From the NCBI RefSeq assembly GCF_947502395.1, contig NZ_CANMZM010000002.1:186001-250000 (forward strand): 64,000 nt of DNA. The letters are read 5' to 3'. Under the pieces are notes generated by a model. That model was not told where the DNA came from. It was given only the letters and a program-made list of their open reading frames with translations, and did no database searches. Shown here one piece after another: positions 6,138-31,417 of this stretch. The DNA is from an uncultured Erythrobacter sp. GTDB taxonomy: Bacteria; Pseudomonadota; Alphaproteobacteria; Sphingomonadales; Sphingomonadaceae. Position numbers and translations under genes: made by a program. Within the stretch, counting starts at the first letter, position 1; each line of letters opens with the position of its first letter.

Positions 6138-6995
6138 TACGAAGGGATCAAAACACTCATGCTAACAACGCCGACATCATTACCGATTTAGGGTGTCAGG
6201 GCTGTATTGCCAGACGCAGACTATTCGCTTGGACCCAATGCTCTTGTGAACTTCTGATGTTTAGCCCTTCACGACAATTGTAATCGTGATTACGTCTTGC
6301 AAAGCAATGAGGTGCAGCCTTCATGGCTGAGCCTGTTCTTGGGCTCTCAATTTCGCTTTCACTGCAAAAATTGAGTGTTTGGGCCCGACCAAGCTTCTCT
6401 GACGGCTGCAAAGGAGCTTTTGAAACCAGCAGAAGGGCCGCTCCTGCGAGAGAATGGCGACGGGCTTATCTGGGGAGAGTGCCGGGGCTGTGGCTCAATC
6501 CCTTAACGGCTTGTGGTCTCAGAACTTGACGCTGGCTACAATTGCACCTGCCCCAGCCGCAAATTTCTTTGCAAGCATGCCCTTGCGCTCATGTACATAC
6601 GCGCCTTTCGCTGAGGGCAGTGTCCCGCAATGGGTGCGGGATTGGCTCTCACGCCGTCGCGGAGCGAGTACGGCAACCGCCACCGGGAAAAGGAAGACAA
6701 GAAAGGCCCAAGCCATCGATTGCCGCGACCAAGATCGATATCGAGCCCAAGACAATGACGCCAGAGGCACTCGCCAAGGCAGAAGCGCAACACGAGCGCA
6801 ATCGCAAGAAGCGCGAAGAGATGATCGTGTACGGGATAGCCGCGATGACTGGATCGAGGATCGGCTTGAACGCGGCCTCACCGGTTTTGATCCGCTTCGT
6901 CACCCAGGAATAGCAAGCGCCCACATTTTGCATCTGAGAAGCAAAGGGTGCATCCATGACCGCGAATCTTCATTTGCGTGAAAAGAGCGGATGCC

Positions 6996-8273: not shown

Positions 8274-9539
8274 CTACTCGGTTCGAAGAGCCTCAATTGG
8301 TGATAAGCGTGAGGCTCGAATTGCGGGATAGCTCCCAAACACCAAACCCAAAAAGGCTGAAAACGCCAGCGAACCTAATGCGACGCCGATCCCAATCGGA
8401 ACCGGAAAGTCAGCATAGGCCGTCAACGCCGCTCCTGCGAGCCACGCCAAGGTCAGACCTACAGCCCCACCCAAAACGCACAGCACAGCGGCTTCGACAA
8501 GAAACTGGTTGCGGATATCGCTTCCCTTCGCGCCCAGCGCCATGCGCAGACCAATCTCACGAGTGCGTTCGGTGACGCTAACCAGCATGATATTCATGAT
8601 CCCGATCCCGCCAACCAGCAGTGAGATAGATGCAATAGCCACCAGCACCGCTTGCAGGATGCCAGTGATGAACTGGCTTTCTTCCATGAACTCTTGCGTG
8701 GTGCGCACACGGAAGGGGTTTATCTCTCCGTCGCGGACCCGGTAGCGGTCCTTCAACACATTGGTGATGTCGATTTTGCCTTGGACGAGCGAAGCCCCCT
8801 CCTCAAAACCTGCGAAAGCCAGTTGCAAATCGTCTGGACCCGGCAGTGTGTCACCGACAAATCGTTGACGAATTGTGGAGATTGGCATCACCACCGTATC
8901 ATCATTGTCGGTGCCAAAGGTTGAACCTTTCTCTTCAAGCAGGCCAATGACCTGAAACGGCACCCCATCGACGCGTACCGTTTCGCCAACTGGGTCAAAC
9001 TCTCCAAAAAGTGTCTCTGCCGTGGTGCGGCCCAAGACCAACACCCGTGCCGCCGAACGGACATCGGCTTCGCTGATATAGCGGCCACGATCAGCCGGGT
9101 GATTGGTGATCTGGCCGTAGCCCGGCGTAGTGCCCACCGCGCTGGTCGATGTGCTGGCTCCCGCCGTCACAAGATCGAGCGTAGAACGCAGTTGCGGTGC
9201 TGTTGCGATTATGCCGGGGACCTCACGCTCAATCGCTCGCAAATCACGGCTCGTAAGCCGTCCACGATCAAAGGAGCGGCGACCACCCTCATTATCGGGC
9301 TCCGGCACAATGATCGCCATGTTGGAGCCAAAGCTGTTGATCGACTGCATCACCGATTCTTGCGCGCCATTGCCTACAGCAACCGCCAATGTGACTGCGA
9401 ACACGCCGATCAAAACACCCAGCATTGTGAGGATCGAACGCATCAAATTTGTGTGCAAAGCCGTTAGGGCGATGGCGATATTGACGCCCCAACTTGCCAA
9501 GAAATTGGACCTTCTAGGCCTTACCGGAACGCTTGCCAT
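8274..9539 (-). CDS. MacB/FtsX-type ABC transporter permease
   Basis: MRSILTMLGVLIGVFAVTLAVAVGNGAQ and GIGIMNIMLVSVTERTREIGLRMALGAK. Confidence 0.92.
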   Translation of the reverse strand: MASVPVRPRRSNFLASWGVNIAIALTALHTNLMRSILTMLGVLIGVFAVTLAVAVGNGAQESVMQSINSFGSNMAIIVPEPDNEGGRRSFDRGRLTSRDLRAIEREVPGIIATAPQLRSTLDLVTAGASTSTSAVGTTPGYGQITNHPADRGRYISEADVRSAARVLVLGRTTAETLFGEFDPVGETVRVDGVPFQVIGLLEEKGSTFGTDNDDTVVMPISTIRQRFVGDTLPGPDDLQLAFAGFEEGASLVQGKIDITNVLKDRYRVRDGEINPFRVRTTQEFMEESQFITGILQAVLVAIASISLLVGGIGIMNIMLVSVTERTREIGLRMALGAKGSDIRNQFLVEAAVLCVLGGAVGLTLAWLAGAALTAYADFPVPIGIGVALGSLAFSAFLGLVFGSYPAIRASRLSPIEALRTE

Positions 9540-22653: not shown

Positions 22654-23226
22654 TTAGGCATTACCGTGCTCCTTGTGGGCAATCTCGTGCAGCCAATCGG
22701 CATGGCGCGGCGCGGTCTTGGTCTCGCTCCATTCGTCCAGCATCACAGGTGCGACGCGCTTGAGCTCGGCGTATTGCTCATCGGTGCCAATGTCTGCGGC
22801 GAGTTCGACGCGGTGACCGTTGGGATCGAAGAAGTAGATCGACTTGAAGATGCCGTGGTGGGTCGGGCCTAACACGTCGATGCCCTCGCCCTCGATATGG
22901 GCTTTGGCGGCGAGAAGTTCTTCCTCAGAGCCGACCTTGAAAGCGAAGTGTTGAACCCATTGAGGGGTGTTCTCATCACGGCCCATTTCGGGCTGGTTGG
23001 GAAGCTCGAAGAAGGCAAGGATATTGCCGTTCCCCGCGTCGAGGAACACATGCATATAGGGATCATACGCGCCGGTCGAAGGCACATGATCCTCCGCAAA
23101 GGCAGTGGTGTAGTCCATGCCAAGCACGCGACCGTACCACTCGACGGTCTCCTTAGCGTCTTTGCAGCGAAGCGCTGTGTGGTGGACACCTGCGAGTTTA
23201 ACGGGGTGGGTCCCAGAAACACTCAC
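22654..23226 (-). CDS. VOC family (glyoxalase/dioxygenase superfamily) protein
   Basis: [26 protein letters not shown] and [17 protein letters not shown]. Confidence 0.88.
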
Positions 23227-24344
23227 TGCGCCGGCTCCTCTTCGACGTTGAGCACACCGCGCGCAACTTGGTCACGCTCGATGCTCTCAAACAGCGCTTT
23301 GAAGTTGCCTTCACCAAAGCCGTCTTTGTAGTCGCCTACGCGCTGGATAAACTCGAAGAACACAGGGCCAATGCGCGGTTCTGCGAAGATTTGGAGAAGG
23401 AGACGTGGTGCGCCGCCTTCAGTGGCGCCATCAAGCAGGATGCCGCGAGACTTGAGCGCTGCTTCATCACGGCCGTGGCCGGGAAGACGCTCTGACAGCA
23501 TCTCGTAATATGTCTCTGGCGGCGCGGTCATGAACGGCACGTCGAGCTTCTTGAGGCGGTCCCATGCGGCAACGATATCGTCGCAGATGAGCGCGATGTG
23601 CTGAATGCCCTCGCCATTGTATTCGCGCAGGTACTCTTCGATCTGACCCTTGCCGTTCTCGCCCTCCTCATTGAGCGGGATGCGGATCTTGCCGTCGGGC
23701 GCGGTCAGCGCTTTTGAGGTGAGGCCGGTGTACTCGCCCTTAATGTCGAAGTAGCGGATTTCCTGGAAGTTGAAGAGCTTCTCATAGAAGTCGGCCCAAT
23801 AGGCCATGCGCCCGCCATAGACGTTGTGGGTGAGGTGATCGATCAGCTGGAAGCCGCAACCTTCTGGGTGCTTGTCGACGCCGGGGAGGTACTCGAAGTC
23901 GATGTCATAGATAGACAGCCCCTCGCCTGCTTCGTCCGCATAACGATCAACGAAGTAAAGGATCGAGCCGCCAATGCCGCGGATCGCCGGAATGCTGAGC
24001 TCCATCGGGCCGGGAGCATTGGCGACAGGCTCTGCGCCTTGTTCGAGGACGTGAGAATAAGCCTTGGCCGCATCGCGGACGCGGAACGCCATGCCGCAGG
24101 CGCCTGGACCATGCTCGCGCGCAAAGTACCATGCAGCGGATTTGGGCTCATAATTCACCACAAGGTTGATCCCGCCCTGACGCCACAAAGCCACGTCTTT
24201 CGAGCGGTGATTGGCGATGTGAGTGAAGCCCATGCTCTCAAAAACCGGCTCCAGCATACCTTTTTCAGAGGCGGAGAATTCGACGAATTCAAAGCCGTCG
24301 AGGCCAGCGGGGTTTTCGAACAAATCACCTGGGTGGAGGGTCAT
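23223..24344 (-). CDS. hppD: 4-hydroxyphenylpyruvate dioxygenase
   Basis: [99 protein letters not shown]. Confidence 0.95.
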
Positions 24345-24492
24345 GAGTTTGTACCTTTGATTGAGAATATAGAGCCGAGGGACCGTGCCCTCAATTTAGT
24401 TTCTTTTGAAACTATCTAACTGGAGAGGGCTCATTTGTCAATTGAACCAAGCAGGCTTTGCGTGCAGGATTGCCGCAAGAGGTGAGAGAGAG

Positions 24493-25026
24493 ATGATCAA
24501 GACCAAAGGAATCAATCACATCGCGCTGGTGTGCCGCGATATGGAGGAGACGGTGAAATTCTACACCGAGGTCCTTCAAATGCCGCTGTTCAAGACGGTC
24601 GAGCTTCCGGACGGCGGTCAACACTTCTTTTTCGATTGCGGCGGCGGCAATGCGGTGGCGTTCTTCTGGTGGGTCGATGGACCGCCTGCGGCTCCCGGTA
24701 TCGCCTCGGTCAAATCTTTCCCTTACGATGCAAAGACGGCGGTGGGCTCGATGAACCATTTGGCGTTCGACATGGAAGAGAGCGAGCTTGAAGCCGCACT
24801 CGACCGGCTTGAGGAAGCAGGCGTTGAGCACACCCATGCGGTGATCAATCACGATGACAGCAAGATGGGCATGACGCAGCAAATGCATGAGGGTGTCTTT
24901 GTGCGCAGCGTTTATTTCACCGATCCCAATGGCATCATGTTGGAATTTGCGGCGACCACCAAAACCTTCGGCCCCGAAGACATCGCGCACAAGCCGGCCA
25001 CTGCCGCCGACCGAGTGGAGGCGTAG
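24493..25026 (+). CDS. VOC family protein
   Basis: MIKTKGINHIALVCRDMEETVKFYTEVLQMPLFKTVELPDGGQHFFFDCGGGNAVAFF; ATG at 24493. Confidence 0.88.
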   Translation: MIKTKGINHIALVCRDMEETVKFYTEVLQMPLFKTVELPDGGQHFFFDCGGGNAVAFFWWVDGPPAAPGIASVKSFPYDAKTAVGSMNHLAFDMEESELEAALDRLEEAGVEHTHAVINHDDSKMGMTQQMHEGVFVRSVYFTDPNGIMLEFAATTKTFGPEDIAHKPATAADRVEA

Positions 25027-25029
25027 AAC

Positions 25030-25674
25030 ATGCCTAGACTGCGCGAAGTCCCCAAGGCTGAAGCCGACGGTAGCATTCTCCCGCTTTATCAGCTCCTATT
25101 CGGAGATCGCGACCCGGTCGCTGAGCCCGGCACCGCCACAGGCACCCCCGGCGATTGGTGGACAGTTTTCGCCAATTCACCTGAGACCTTGGCGCACGCG
25201 GCCCAAGGGTTTGCCTATTACCGCTCACCAAAGCGCAAACTCGACCCAACCTTGCGCGAGCTCGGGCAAACATGGGCTGGTTGGGCCACAGGCAGCCGGT
25301 TTGTCTTCTCGCAGCACTGCAAGTCCCTTCGCGGCCTTGCCTATCCCGAAGAGAAGATCGAGGCCCTCCCCACTTGGCAAACGGCCACATGCTACACCGC
25401 GAAAGAGCGCCTTGTGCTCGCCTATGCCGACCGCCTTGTTGTGCACCAAGGGCGCGTGCCCGATGCGCTTTTCGATGCGCTGAAGGCCGAGTTTTCCGAT
25501 GAGGAGATCATGGAGCTCACCTACACAACGTGCATGTATCTTATGCATGCAGTGATGAGCCGCGCGCTTCGCACAGAGTTCGATGATCGCGATGACCCCA
25601 TCACCGAAGTGCCAGCGCCCGAAGGCTTTGATGCGCTCGATTTCCTAGGCGGGAACCGGGACAAGAAGGACTAG
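25030..25674 (+). CDS. Carboxymuconolactone decarboxylase family protein
   Basis: ELGQTWAGWATGSRFVFSQHCKSLRGLAYPEEKIEAL; CMD-like helical domain. Confidence 0.8.
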   Translation: MPRLREVPKAEADGSILPLYQLLFGDRDPVAEPGTATGTPGDWWTVFANSPETLAHAAQGFAYYRSPKRKLDPTLRELGQTWAGWATGSRFVFSQHCKSLRGLAYPEEKIEALPTWQTATCYTAKERLVLAYADRLVVHQGRVPDALFDALKAEFSDEEIMELTYTTCMYLMHAVMSRALRTEFDDRDDPITEVPAPEGFDALDFLGGNRDKKD

Positions 25675-26070
25675 GCGCTAAGTCCCCTATCTCTGCCCAC
25701 CGAGAAGGGAGGGGGATAGAATTTGCCACCAATCGACCAGCGTCTAATCACGGCCGAGCAGTTCGTAGTTTTGGTCGTTTATTGGCCCGATTGTCGCCTG
25801 TGCGGCCAACCGATCGAAGCCCAAAAGCCTTCATTCCGCTTGCGACCCACCTTCGGACACTAGGCGTCACGCAACCATGACGCATGATTATCGATGCGGT
25901 TATGATGTCGGCGGAGTTGTTCCTCACCTCCTATTCGAGGTATCCAAAGGAACGAACCAGCGTGACTAGAAAGACATTCACCAGAGGCTTGTGTCAATCG
26001 GATCTGCGAAGACCAAGCTTCATTCTCAAAAACCGAAGTTTTCGAAAGAGTGCAAATTAATTCCTTTTAA

Positions 26071-26088
26071 CTATTGATATATACATAG
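26071..26088. promoter_or_regulatory. TetR-locus operator-like motif, site 1 CTATTGATATATACATAG
   Basis: 17/18 identical to site 4; 115 bp upstream of the alcohol dehydrogenase start. Confidence 0.7.
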
Positions 26089-26202
26089 GTGATATCTAGA
26101 TGCTCCGGCGAGACAGCAATTGCTGTCCATTTTAAGATTCGGACGCTCTCAGATTTGGCCTGCAATTCAGGCAAGGGGTCCAAACTGAAGGATTAGAAAG
26201 CG

Positions 26203-27288
26203 ATGTTAGGCACTTATTATCACGATCGCGGCCAAGTCAGAGTTGGCAACATCCCCGAGCCGCAACTGATTCAAGACAATGACGCAATCGTTCGCGTCAC
26301 TCTCGCCGGAATTTGCGGCGCTGACCTGGATTTCGTGAACAACGGCCCAGAAGCGGGCGTTATGCAGGGCATGCGCCTTGGTCACGAATTCGTCGGCGTT
26401 GTCGAAGCGGTCGGCAAGGACGTCACCAATGTGAAGGTCGGTGACCGCGTGGTCGCATCGGCCATGTTCGTTGATGGCGAGTGCCACTTCTGCAAGCGCG
26501 ACTTTAACTCATCCTGCGAACATGGCGGCCTCTTCGGTTCACCAATGTTTGTCGAGCATGGCGGCAACGACATTCAAGGCGGCCAGTCTGAATATGTCCG
26601 CGTCCCTTACGCCAACTCCACTTTGTTCACCCTGCCAGAGGGCCTGGCAACCGGCGCAGAAGATGCCCGCGCACTACCGCTCGCAGACAATTTCGCGACT
26701 GGATATCACGGTGCATTGAACGCCAATATCCAGGAAGGCGGCACAGTTGTCGTGATTGGCGACGGCGCGGTTGGTCAGAGCGCGGTTCTGGCCAGCAGCA
26801 AGCTGTTCAATCCAGAACAAGTCATCCACGTTGGCCGTCACGATGGCCGTCTGGGTTTCAGCCGCAACAAGGCCGGCGCGACCCACACCGTCAACGGCAA
26901 GACCGGCGATCCAGTTGAATTCGTCAAGGAATTGACCGGCGGATATGGCGCGCTCTCGATCATTGATACGGTCGGCAATCAAGCCTCGCTCCAGCAAACA
27001 CTCGATATGGCGCAAGCCGGCGGCAAGATCAGTGTTTTGGGCTTTGGCCACTTGTTTGCACCGGTTGATCAGCCTTACTCAGCCTCGCTGTTTCGCAATC
27101 TCACCATTCACACTGGCGTTGTGAATGTGCCCGCGTACATGCGTACTCTGCTGCCTCTGGTTGAGGCTGGGAAGATTGATCCAAGCATTATCTTCACTGA
27201 CATTCTGCCGCTCGCAGATGCAGCCGAAGGTTACGACCGAATGCTGATGCGCACTGATGGAACGATCAAGGTTGCCTTGAAGAACTAG
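26203..27288 (+). CDS. Zinc-dependent alcohol dehydrogenase (MDR family)
   Basis: LAGICGADLDFV, MRLGHEFVGVVEAVG, ECHFCKRDFNSSCEHG, Rossmann VVVIGDGAVGQSA. Confidence 0.92.
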   Translation: MLGTYYHDRGQVRVGNIPEPQLIQDNDAIVRVTLAGICGADLDFVNNGPEAGVMQGMRLGHEFVGVVEAVGKDVTNVKVGDRVVASAMFVDGECHFCKRDFNSSCEHGGLFGSPMFVEHGGNDIQGGQSEYVRVPYANSTLFTLPEGLATGAEDARALPLADNFATGYHGALNANIQEGGTVVVIGDGAVGQSAVLASSKLFNPEQVIHVGRHDGRLGFSRNKAGATHTVNGKTGDPVEFVKELTGGYGALSIIDTVGNQASLQQTLDMAQAGGKISVLGFGHLFAPVDQPYSASLFRNLTIHTGVVNVPAYMRTLLPLVEAGKIDPSIIFTDILPLADAAEGYDRMLMRTDGTIKVALKN

Positions 27289-27373
27289 GCCACCGCTGTC
27301 GATCCGGCATTGTGGAATTGGGGCGGCTTAGCGGCCACCTTAGCTGCCGCCGCTTGAGGTCGCCCTGAAATAC

Positions 27374-27391
27374 CTATTTATATATAGATAC
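27374..27391. promoter_or_regulatory. TetR-locus operator-like motif, site 2 CTATTTATATATAGATAC
   Basis: 16/18 identical to site 4; 84 bp upstream of the OYE gene. Confidence 0.7.
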
Positions 27392-27474
27392 TTTGCAATC
27401 CTACGACCACCTCAAGCTTCCCCCTCCTCCCGAAGAAGACTTCCCCAAAACCTAGCAAAGAAAGCACCCCTCTT

Positions 27475-28581
27475 ATGACCACTCTTTTCGAACACGGAAC
27501 CCTTGGAGACATTCATGTCAAGAACCGCATCTTCATGGCCCCTCTGACCCGCAACCGCGCGCACGGCGATGGCACGCCGCATGAAATGGCGATCAAGTAT
27601 TATACGCAGCGCGCGGGCGCTGGATTGATCATCACCGAAGGCGCGCAAATCAGCTCAATGGGCCAAGGCTATATCAACACGCCGGGCATCTATAACGAAA
27701 AGCAACGCGATGCTTGGACCAAGATCACGCGTTCGGTTCAAGCAAATGGCGGCAAGATGGTTGTGCAGCTTTGGCATGTTGGCCGGATCAGCCACACCTC
27801 GCTGCTACCCGGCGGCGCGCAGCCGGTTGCACCATCAGCAATTCAGGCGACGGCTGATACCTTCACCGAAAACGGCGTTGAAAATGCATCGCTGCCAAAG
27901 GCTCTGGATATCCAAGGGATCAAAGAGGTGATTGCCGACTATGTTCATGCAGCACGCACTGCGATCGACGCAGGCTTTGACGGTGTCGAAGTGCACGCCG
28001 CCAATGGTTATCTGCTGAACCAGTTTATCTCTGCCCACACCAATCAACGCGAAGACGAATATGGCGGCAGCCCCGAAAATCGCGCCCGCCTGTTCCTCGA
28101 GGTGGTCGATGCTGTGTCGGCAGAGATCGGCGCTGGCCGCGTAGGTGCGCGCGTCTCGCCAACCGGCAAGTTCAACGACTTTGCCGATCCGGATGCGGCA
28201 GAGAACTATGGTTACATCTATGATGAGCTAGAGCGCCGCAATCTCGCTTACCTGCACGTGGTCGAAAGCTTTCCAGGCCATCCTGTTTCGAAAAGCGAAG
28301 AGAAACTGCTGAGCAACCTACGCGGTAATTTCAGCGGCAATTATATCGCCAATGGCAATTACGACAGCGCGGCCGCTTCGCAAGCGATTGCGGACGGCGC
28401 CTTCGCTGTCTCTTTCGGCCGGCCGTACATTGCCAACCCTGACCTCACTGACAGGCTTAGAGACAATTCGAAACTAAACGAGGTCGATGAGGCAACGCTC
28501 TATGGCGGTGATGAAAAGGGGTATTCCGATTATCCAACGCAGGATGAAACATATCTGCGCGCTCTTGCAGAGGTCCTCTAG
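27475..28581 (+). CDS. nemA: Alkene reductase, old yellow enzyme family (NemA-like)
   Basis: RIFMAPLTRNRAHGDGTPHEMAIKYYTQRAGAGLIITEGAQIS, QLWHVGRISH, FDGVEVHAANGYLLNQF. Confidence 0.93.
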   Translation: MTTLFEHGTLGDIHVKNRIFMAPLTRNRAHGDGTPHEMAIKYYTQRAGAGLIITEGAQISSMGQGYINTPGIYNEKQRDAWTKITRSVQANGGKMVVQLWHVGRISHTSLLPGGAQPVAPSAIQATADTFTENGVENASLPKALDIQGIKEVIADYVHAARTAIDAGFDGVEVHAANGYLLNQFISAHTNQREDEYGGSPENRARLFLEVVDAVSAEIGAGRVGARVSPTGKFNDFADPDAAENYGYIYDELERRNLAYLHVVESFPGHPVSKSEEKLLSNLRGNFSGNYIANGNYDSAAASQAIADGAFAVSFGRPYIANPDLTDRLRDNSKLNEVDEATLYGGDEKGYSDYPTQDETYLRALAEVL

Positions 28582-28700
28582 CGCAGCAACGCCGGAGAAC
28601 CCCCATCTGGTTCAGGGTAAGGCGGGTGAGCGGACGGCTTTTGAGAAAAGAACCCGTTCACCCAGCCGAGCCACTTTGCCGAACAATTAGGAAAATTCAC

Positions 28701-28871
28701 ATGTCAAATCACCGCGAAGTTCTGGTTTCCACATTCCTTGGGTTTGCAATCACAATGACGCTGTTCGCCCCGCCAATTATCATCGCAAAGATCGAGAAGG
28801 CGGAACGGATCGAAGCATACGATCGCTCCCAGTCTGCCCCAGCCAATGCGACGCCAACACTGACTGGCTGA
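28701..28871 (+). CDS. 56-aa predicted single-TM peptide, unknown function
   Basis: MSNHREVLVSTFLGFAITMTLFAPPIIIAKIEKAERIEAYDRSQSAPANATPTLTG; AGGA 8 nt before the ATG. Confidence 0.55.
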   Translation: MSNHREVLVSTFLGFAITMTLFAPPIIIAKIEKAERIEAYDRSQSAPANATPTLTG

Positions 28872-28959
28872 TGCTGGCGAGTCATCAAAGCCTGTTTCTT
28901 GACCTGAAAACTAAGGCTCTATTCCCATTCGATGGCTTGACTTTTGATGTCGCAATCTT

Positions 28960-28979
28960 ATCTATATGCATATAGATTT
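28960..28979. promoter_or_regulatory. TetR-locus operator-like motif, site 3, with perfect palindrome ATCTATATGCATATAGAT
   Basis: Perfect 18-bp palindrome at 28960-28977; 28962-28979 (CTATATGCATATAGATTT) aligns with the other sites through CTAT-N4-ATATAGAT. Just upstream of the TetR start. Confidence 0.75.
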
Positions 28980-28990
28980 ATGTGGATGTT

Positions 28991-29524
28991 ATGACCGATA
29001 CAAAGACAAAAATTCTTGATCTTGCTGAATCCTTGACCCAGACGCGCGGGTTCAACGGCTTCAGCTATATCGATTTGGCAAATGAGATTGGCATCAAAAC
29101 GGCCAGCATCCATTACCATTTCAAGCTGAAGGACGATCTCGCTGCGGCCTTGGTTGAGCGCCTTCGCGAGCAGCACGCCTTGGGTTTTGCTGCGATGGAG
29201 GCCGCGAATGAGACGCCGGAAGGGCGCCTTCAGGCTGCTATCGATTACTTCAAAGGCTATCTCGCCAAAGAAGAGTTTTGCATGTGCGGCATGATGGCGG
29301 CTGAGTTGCAATCGGTCAGCCCGCGCGTTGCCAGCCTGGTCAAGGCCTATTTCCGCGATTTCGAGGCTTGGCTGTACAAACAGTTTGAACTCGCAGGTCG
29401 AGAAAATGCTGACGAGCTCGCTATCGGCTTTCTCAGCACACTGGAAGGATCGCTCCTCATCGCCCGCCTTACCGGTGATGCCGACGTAATTTCGAAGGCC
29501 CTCAAAGGGTATCTCAAAGAATAA
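28991..29524 (+). CDS. TetR/AcrR-family transcriptional regulator
   Basis: N-terminal HTH ...TRGFNGFSYIDLANEIGIKTASIHYHFKLKDDLAAALVERL; C-terminal domain with FCMCGMMAAELQ. ATG 28991 or GTG 28982. Confidence 0.92.
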   Translation: MTDTKTKILDLAESLTQTRGFNGFSYIDLANEIGIKTASIHYHFKLKDDLAAALVERLREQHALGFAAMEAANETPEGRLQAAIDYFKGYLAKEEFCMCGMMAAELQSVSPRVASLVKAYFRDFEAWLYKQFELAGRENADELAIGFLSTLEGSLLIARLTGDADVISKALKGYLKE

Positions 29525-29545
29525 GAGCCTTTTTCTTCGTCTTGC

Positions 29546-29563
29546 CTATTGATATATAGATAG
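29546..29563. promoter_or_regulatory. TetR-locus operator-like motif, site 4 CTATTGATATATAGATAG
   Basis: Upstream of the NTF2-like/AhpD-like genes; near-palindromic. Confidence 0.7.
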
Positions 29564-29665: not shown

Positions 29666-30076
29666 ATGTCCAACGCCCCAGCACCCAAAGTCACCAACCC
29701 AGAAGAAATCGCCAGCTTCGCGGAATATGAGGCCGTCGCCAAAGCGCTGCTTCCCTATATCGAAGCGGCTAAGACCGGTGATGGTGAACTCAGCCGTTCG
29801 GCCTTCTACGACCACGCCAATATCGTCGGCTCTATTGGCGGAGAGTTTTCGACACCAGATGCCAATGCATTCGCCGCAGAAGTATCCGAAATCGGCGCAT
29901 CGCCAGACGTGCAGAGCCGGATCGCATGGATCGATATCTCTGGCCCTGCAGCCGCTGCGAAGGTTGAATTCATCAACTGGGCTGGCCTGCGCTTCACCGA
30001 CTTTTTCGTCCTCTACAAACGTGACGATCAGTGGAAGATCAGCGGCAAAGTCTACGATTCCCACTCCAACAATTAA
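29666..30076 (+). CDS. NTF2-like / nuclear transport factor 2 family protein
   Basis: MSNAPAPKVTNPEEIASFAEYEAVAKALLPYIEAAKTGDGELSRSAFYDHANIVGSIGG...FTDFFVLYKRDDQWKISGKVYDSH; lumazine-binding-like NTF2 fold. Confidence 0.78.
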   Translation: MSNAPAPKVTNPEEIASFAEYEAVAKALLPYIEAAKTGDGELSRSAFYDHANIVGSIGGEFSTPDANAFAAEVSEIGASPDVQSRIAWIDISGPAAAAKVEFINWAGLRFTDFFVLYKRDDQWKISGKVYDSHSNN

Positions 30077-30122: not shown

Positions 30123-30689
30123 ATGACTAACTTTACAGTCCACACTCAAGAAACCGCTCCGGAAGGCAGCAAAGAATTGCTCGCCGGCGCTCAGAAAACT
30201 TACGGCTTTGTGCCCAATCTGATGGCCACCTTGGCCGAGGCTCCCATCGCCGCTGAGGCCTACATCACGCTGGGCGGACTTTTCGACAAGAGCGATCTCA
30301 CGCCAACTGAGCAGCAGGTCATCCTGATGACCAACAACCGCCTCAACGGCTGCGAATATTGCATGGCGGCGCACACCACCATTTCCGGTATGCAAGGTGT
30401 TGATGCCGATGTGATCACCGCACTACGCGATGGCACCCAGCTGGCTGATCCCAAGCTTGAGGCTCTGCGTGTATTCGCAGCGCAAGTGAACACTCAGCGC
30501 GGTTATCTTGAAGATGCGCAGATCGATGCGTTCCTCGCCGCGGGTTACACCAAGGGCAACCTGCTGGAAGTGATTGTCGGCACCAGCCTCAAGGTGATTT
30601 CGAACTACACCAACCATGTGGCTCACACCCCGGTTGATGCGGCCTTCCAAGCCAACGCCTGGACCGCTGAACAACGCGCGGCTGCATAA
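30123..30689 (+). CDS. AhpD-like / carboxymuconolactone decarboxylase family protein
   Basis: ATG 30123; VILMTNNRLNGCEYCMAAHTTIS (CxxC...H AhpD motif). Confidence 0.87.
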   Translation: MTNFTVHTQETAPEGSKELLAGAQKTYGFVPNLMATLAEAPIAAEAYITLGGLFDKSDLTPTEQQVILMTNNRLNGCEYCMAAHTTISGMQGVDADVITALRDGTQLADPKLEALRVFAAQVNTQRGYLEDAQIDAFLAAGYTKGNLLEVIVGTSLKVISNYTNHVAHTPVDAAFQANAWTAEQRAAA

Positions 30690-30790: not shown

Positions 30791-31417
30791 ATGATTGATC
30801 TCTACACTTGGGGAACCCCAAACGGTTTCAAAGTCTCGGTTGCCCTTGAAGAAATGGGCTTGGACTACACCGTCAAACCGGTGAATATCGGCGCGGGCGA
30901 GCAGAAATGGCCTGAGTATCTTGCGATCAATCCGAACGGCCGCATCCCGGCGATTGTTGACCGCGACAATGACGATTTCGCCGTGTTCGAATCCGGCGCA
31001 ATCCTGATCTATCTGGCTGAGAAAAGCGGCAAGCTGCTGCCGACAGACATGAAGGGCGGGTCTGAGGTTCTGCAATGGCTGATGTGGCAAATGGCGGGGC
31101 TCGGACCGATGCAGGGTCAAGCCGTCACCTTCCTCAAGTTTTTCCCAGAGCGCGTATAGCCAGCAATCGAGCGCTATCAGGCCGAAACGGTGCGGCTGTT
31201 CGGCGTGCTCGATCAGCACCTTGCAACCCGCGAATTTCAAGCAGGCGACTATTCCATTGCTGACATCGCCAATTGGTGCTGGGTTCGCTATCACGAATAT
31301 GCCGAAGTTGAGCTTGATCAATTCCCCAATCTGATCCGCTGGCGCGACCAGATCGAGGCCCGGCCAGCCTCTGCCAGAGGCCTGGCTGTGCCAACCATGG
31401 CGGAACCGTCTAAATAG
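30791..31417 (+). pseudogene. Glutathione S-transferase interrupted by one in-frame amber codon
   Basis: ORFs 30785..31159 and 31190..31417 share a frame. TAG at 31157-31159 splits ...[30 protein letters not shown]...; both halves are GST-like. Confidence 0.82.

Follow-up and report, generated by a model that had tools for sequence, protein, structure and literature searches.

A predicted local, autoregulated TetR regulon with a 22-bp palindromic operator in an uncultured Erythrobacter sp.

What does the TetR-family regulator encoded at 28991–29524 in a 64,000-nt stretch of contig NZ_CANMZM010000002.1 (uncultured Erythrobacter sp.) control, and in response to what? Four copies of one operator-like motif in this stretch (hereafter the window, to which all unlabelled coordinates refer) precede an alcohol dehydrogenase (ADH) gene, an old yellow enzyme (OYE) gene, tetR itself, and a gene pair encoding an NTF2-like protein and an AhpD-like carboxymuconolactone-decarboxylase-family protein (CMD). 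The original prediction, made from the window alone, was a local autoregulated TetR regulon. This is well supported by sequence, namely the genome-wide rarity of the motif and its conservation in orthologous loci, and the comparison argues for a real, phylogenetically supported regulon. The full explanation, that the four sites are TetR operators repressing four units until an electrophile or carbonyl releases them, is likely.

We described the motif in the register of a 22-bp palindrome, TTAYCTAT-N6-ATAGRTAA, which holds 31.6 bits of information over 18 aligned sites; a first register, CTAT-N10-ATAG, was dropped once the sites of relatives had been aligned. All four predicted operators are on the plus strand. 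O1 (TTAACTATTGATATATACATAG, 26067–26088) lies 114 bp 5′ of the ADH start codon, O2 (ATACCTATTTATATATAGATAC, 27370–27391) 83 bp 5′ of the OYE start codon, and O4 (TTGCCTATTGATATATAGATAG, 29542–29563) 102 bp 5′ of the NTF2-like start codon, while O3 (TTATCTATATGCATATAGATTT, 28958–28979) ends 11 bp 5′ of the tetR ATG. The motif sequences earlier placed at 26071, 27374, 28962 and 29546 were all found there. They had been described as 18-bp units, which give the right-hand 18 bp correctly; the full unit is the 22-bp palindrome and begins 4 bp further left. Likewise, "near-identical" holds for the arms but not for the six central bases, which are ATGCAT in the tetR copy versus TGATAT or TTATAT in the others. 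The perfect palindrome reported before tetR is present (ATCTATATGCATATAGAT, 18 bp, 28960–28977).

These sites are rare. With up to two mismatches, the consensus matched the window 8 times over both strands, always at the four sites, against a mean of 0.01 in shuffles. A search of the whole genome (3,416,994 bp) for CTATNNNNATATAGATAG, allowing one mismatch at most, hit exactly the four window sites, all inside 3.5 kb; 0.34 such matches would be expected by chance under a first-order Markov model of the window's composition. Hence the motif is not frequent elsewhere; a high frequency had been named in advance as an outcome that would count against the regulon. The first pattern also had weak matches in further genomes of the family (GATATATTCATAG-like; L032, L035, L036, L040 and L042). 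We treated these as unrelated, since the ones inspected overlap open reading frames and have no neighbouring genes in common.

Are the sites conserved? Sampling 251 genomes of the window's family turned up no close relative of the TetR apart from that of the window itself (best 38% identity), so the comparison was extended to more distant groups. Scanning 85,462 species genomes yielded orthologs in another uncultured Erythrobacter (L043, 99% identical), Denitrobaculum (L044, 68%), a Sphingomonadaceae genome (L045, 72%) and a Pseudomonadales genome (L046, 60%). Profile searches added two loci from the order of Denitrobaculum (L083 and L084) and one from another family within the window's order (L096). 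Besides the 99% identical ortholog, the other six of these seven are 60–72% identical and span other genera, families and orders as well as one further class. The order tetR–NTF2–CMD is held in all eight loci, and the arrangement of ADH, OYE, quinone reductase (QOR), glyoxalase and aldehyde reductase genes around it varies. Each of the eight has one palindrome immediately 5′ of tetR and a second one in the stretch that separates tetR from the NTF2-like gene. Absence from orthologous loci, another adverse outcome considered beforehand, was thus not observed. In an alignment of the 110 bp upstream of tetR from seven loci, 12 of the 22 motif columns were invariant and the flanking DNA had diverged. 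The core 18-mer of O4 is matched exactly in L043 and L045.

For an independent assessment, we built a matrix from the sites of L044, L045, L046, L083 and L084 only, leaving out those of the window. On the window, its top ranks were the four sites, with scores of 30.5 (O2), 28.5, 26.8 and 22.8. The lowest score belongs to O1, the weakest copy (compared with 26.8–30.5), which is symmetric at 12 of 22 positions. The next independent match scored 6.0, and ten shuffled windows reached a maximum of 12.3, in line with the earlier statement that the window holds no further copies. L096, retrieved only once the matrix had been fixed and not part of it, reached 31.2 upstream of tetR and 27.4 upstream of the NTF2-like gene; apart from shifted overlaps of these two sites, nothing in its 19 kb scored above 6.

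The position of the tetR site points to autorepression. O3 includes a putative -10 hexamer, TATCTA (28959–28964), and a putative -35 hexamer, TTGACT (28937–28942, plus strand), lies 16 bp 5′ of it. In seven of the eight loci the tetR operator holds TATCTA 16 bp after TTG(A/C)NN, and so covers the putative -10, as expected for autorepression; the distance from site to tetR start codon is 11–35 bp in every locus measured. At the ADH, OYE and NTF2 sites, a generic -35/-10 scan gave no informative result, leaving the tetR promoter as the only one with a conserved arrangement. The TetR of the window very probably binds the four sites, and we infer repression rather than activation.

The distribution of sites among relatives mostly appears to track operon structure. 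Genes behind CMD have no site of their own: ADH and OYE in L045, ADH in L083 and L096, and QOR in L044 and L084. In the window and L043, ADH and OYE stand apart and have one site each. As an exception to the operon pattern, a QOR gene lies between ADH and OYE in L043 (5369–6331) with no operator directly upstream; QOR is absent from the window.

Could a passenger tetR gene simply lie among sites bound by another regulator? A palindrome alone cannot tell transcription factor families apart. However, the sites are present in all eight loci that have the ortholog, at the distance from tetR given above, and among the 251 family genomes the ortholog and the site cluster occur together in the window's genome only. 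In addition, TetRs of a neighbouring clade have related TAYCTA palindromes alongside. We regard this explanation as very improbable.

In the resting cell, then, a TetR dimer would sit on the 22-bp palindrome that covers the putative -10 hexamer of its own promoter, and likewise at the ADH, OYE and NTF2–CMD promoters, keeping four transcription units repressed. A reactive electrophile or carbonyl (a quinone, enal, methylglyoxal-type aldehyde or similar) would release it, most likely by modifying Cys97 or Cys99. The reductases and dehydrogenases would then be induced and the compound removed.

Features of the regulator are compatible with such a switch. The 177-aa protein (plus strand) belongs to the TetR helix-turn-helix family (PF00440, 35.2 bits, above the cut-off of 24), and its C-terminal domain matches the LmrA/YxaF-like family PF21993 (35.5 bits, above the cut-off of 27). 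Its predicted structure is all-helical, with a predicted local distance difference test (pLDDT) score of 89.5. It has two cysteines, C97 and C99 (C-x-C), and no others, and both are invariant in nine of nine aligned relatives. The model places them in a loop between helices 76–92 and 101–104, in its lowest-confidence block (mean 66), a placement that, at this low confidence, would suit a thiol switch. The closest full-length solved relatives, 3on4 and 2g7s (143 and 128 bits by profile), are named only as TetR-family regulators; the CMCG of the window protein aligns with CLGG in the former and CVCA in the latter.

What the regulon is for must be read from its genes, all on the plus strand. ADH (26203–27288, 361 aa) is a zinc-dependent medium-chain alcohol/aldehyde dehydrogenase (Pfam ADH_N, 83.5 bits; ADH_zinc_N, 56.7 bits) that reached no NCBIfam equivalog model. 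OYE (27475–28581, 368 aa; PF00724, 275 bits) is of the NemA/glycerol trinitrate reductase type; it scored 376.9 bits against the NemA model, under the cut-off of 403, and its closest solved structure is glycerol trinitrate reductase (5epd). The NTF2-like protein (29666–30076, 136 aa) matches Lumazine_bd_2 (PF12893, 74.3 bits), and its solved relatives, 3duk and 3blz, both lack an assigned function. CMD (30123–30689, 188 aa; PF02627, 38.3 bits) is probably co-transcribed with the NTF2-like gene. Clusters of relatives add an NADPH-dependent aldehyde reductase, Ahr (495.5 versus a cut-off of 470), with two operators upstream; a GloA-like glyoxalase I in L046 and L084 (114 versus the glyox_I cut-off of 120); and a PIG3-type quinone reductase in L043, L044 and L084 (222.8 versus a cut-off of 296.8). 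Given OYE and ADH together with the Ahr, glyoxalase and quinone reductase of relatives, electrophile/carbonyl defence is the best guess. The gene set would fit protection against reactive carbonyls and quinones, a role that is well-founded but unproven, and we lean towards an electrophile or carbonyl as the signal.

Several observations weigh against this account. The window's own cluster holds no glyoxalase or quinone reductase, and neither the CMD nor the NTF2-like protein has an assigned substrate. C-x-C also occurs in many TetRs that are 31–43% identical and have other neighbours; it thus does not single out this regulon and may have a structural role, which makes the sensor step hypothetical. 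Before the NTF2-like gene of L046 and L096, the operator has a shorter spacing (TTACCTGTATATAGGTAA or nearly so), with half-sites 4 bp closer, a feature unaccounted for by a simple one-dimer model. Finally, the separate ADH genes of L044 and L084 have no recognisable site. Directly before each stands a second TetR gene (AcuR/CurR-like, 124 bits, under the cut-off; L044 5237–5833, L084 5681–6235), and a change of regulator is possible there.

The shorter-spaced form was not found in the window's genome. Both spacings occur in L046, where a 22-bp palindrome (6748–6769) and an 18-bp palindrome (stretch 6850–6880) precede Ahr, and another 18-bp palindrome lies in the tetR–NTF2 gap (8526–8576). In a neighbouring TetR clade (36–44% identical, with a C-L-C-G motif), TAYCTA-N4-TAGRTA palindromes lie beside tetR, at 2303–2320 in L086, next to a short-chain dehydrogenase/reductase (SDR) gene, and at 169–190 and 859–880 in L097. 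This clade probably represents a sister regulon.

The same operators could instead serve a TetR whose pocket takes one particular small molecule as a reversible inducer (an aromatic, enone, nitrate ester or flavonoid), for the catabolism or detoxification of that molecule. The PF21993 match speaks for this, as founding members of the LmrA/YxaF-like family sense flavonoids; so does the glycerol trinitrate reductase closest to OYE. A tautomerase lies beside the cluster in L044 and L084, and CMD-family genes are frequent in aromatic catabolism. Yet the enzymes are broad reductases and detoxifiers that form no pathway, the conserved set lacks a ring-cleavage or CoA-ligase gene, and the Ahr and glyoxalase of relatives point to aldehydes. 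While the regulator resembles LmrA/YxaF (QdoR) in its PF21993 domain, above the Pfam cut-off, the target genes differ. We consider a dedicated small-molecule inducer rather unlikely.

Alternatively, the regulon could respond to an oxidant, reactive chlorine, with the electrophile enzymes as a secondary defence. The precedent is RcrR of uropathogenic E. coli, a TetR repressor that hypochlorous acid (HOCl) inactivates through cysteine oxidation (PMC9600549). RcrR is a small, cysteine-dependent repressor of a few local genes (rcrARB), as the window protein is proposed to be. In addition, the gene for a 40% identical TetR carried by Klebsiella plasmids (L091, 5001–6389) has a DUF417 gene and then a CMD gene behind it, recalling the RcrR system. 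But RcrR requires Cys54 and Cys95 (positions taken by description from PMC9600549), whereas the window protein has no Cys54 and no cysteine outside C97/C99. Nor was a DUF417 gene seen in the window cluster or the orthologous clusters. This alternative is improbable. Chance likeness of AT-rich intergenic DNA, suggested by the AT-rich core and by the many 2–3-mismatch matches in the AT-rich relative genome G636, is refuted by the genome-wide uniqueness of the sites (the window is 56% GC), their conservation across a class boundary and the success of the independent matrix on the held-out L096, and is of negligible probability.

How does the electrophile-responsive TetR regulon proposed here relate to characterized systems? 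NemR of E. coli is a repressor of nemA and gloA that electrophiles inactivate by way of cysteine (PMC3739934). "Built like NemR–NemA" is fair as an analogy: in each case a TetR gene neighbours an OYE gene, whose product in the window is of NemA type but under the NemA cut-off, a small autoregulated regulon and cysteine sensing are proposed here too, and two relatives (L046 and L084), but not the window, carry a GloA-like gene just under the cut-off in the cluster, recalling nemRA–gloA. The likeness does not extend to the sensor. Homology to the NemR structure 4yze is weak (E 0.009), and in an alignment with NemR of NC_000913.3 the Cys106 column is occupied by Gln107, while C97 aligns with the Cys of SGCLTVK. 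The window also has extra ADH, NTF2-like and CMD genes and several dispersed operators, and the NemA-type neighbour is missing from several orthologous clusters. Judged by this alignment, the window TetR is not NemR. DitR, the diamide sensor of Stenotrophomonas maltophilia, is likewise a cysteine-dependent TetR repressor of a local operon; its operator (CATAC-N5-GTATG), cysteines (92 and 127) and target, a major facilitator superfamily (MFS) pump operon, all differ from those described here (PMC9342713). Our literature search, with most subscription papers and regulon databases outside it, found no paper joining this type of regulator with these genes, and the regulon is apparently undescribed in the literature searched.

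The module is scattered. Within the window's order, 3 of 401 genomes carry such a TetR (including the window's own, and one of a distant clade); the class and phylum samples gave 1 of 308 and 1 of 399, counts that again take in the genome of the window. Among 295 genomes from the order of L046, the sole carrier was the L046 genome itself. This low frequency and patchy spread suggest that the TetR module moved horizontally between lineages. No relative of at least 60% identity was found on plasmids, and none of the matches listed exceeded about 40%; viral contigs yielded no TetR relative. Homology between the window and L043 begins exactly at 26071, inside the ADH operator, and none was found further left. 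ADH–OYE intergenic DNA does not align between these two, yet the operator before OYE is present in both. The window ADH (26203–27288) is 95% identical to that of L045 (9831–10913), versus 72% for TetR, suggesting a separate recent transfer of ADH.

Taken jointly, these features raise a tentative picture that we hold with considerable doubt: an electrophile-defence module, widely scattered and moving horizontally, that has a TetR sensor class to itself. In it, a C-x-C thiol switch unlike that of NemR or RcrR would be coupled to one half-site read at two spacings (TAYCTA-N8-TAGRTA and TAYCTA-N4-TAGRTA), perhaps by a single dimer or, at the longer sites, by two that overlap. The predicted regulon is complete and testable, comprising regulator, 22-bp operator and four target units, and its gene set recurs in distant Proteobacteria. 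It ties two families without a known role, Lumazine_bd_2 NTF2-like and AhpD-like CMD proteins, to a probable electrophile response, and could supply a small natural switch for biosensors once the inducer is known.

The NTF2-like orthologs of L044, L045, L046 and L096 have an extra hydrophobic, signal-peptide-like N-terminus, which those of the window and L043 lack; the leader of the gene is ∼100 nt in the latter two versus 12–16 nt in the former four. The window/L043 protein may have switched compartment. The stretch upstream of the cluster (22654–25674) contains VOC-family genes and another gene of the CMD family, with no operator copy among them. Downstream, a glutathione S-transferase gene (30791–31403) has an in-frame TAG at 31157. 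Since the L043 copy is intact (209 aa, 93% identical), that of the window is either a recent pseudogene or affected by a sequencing error.

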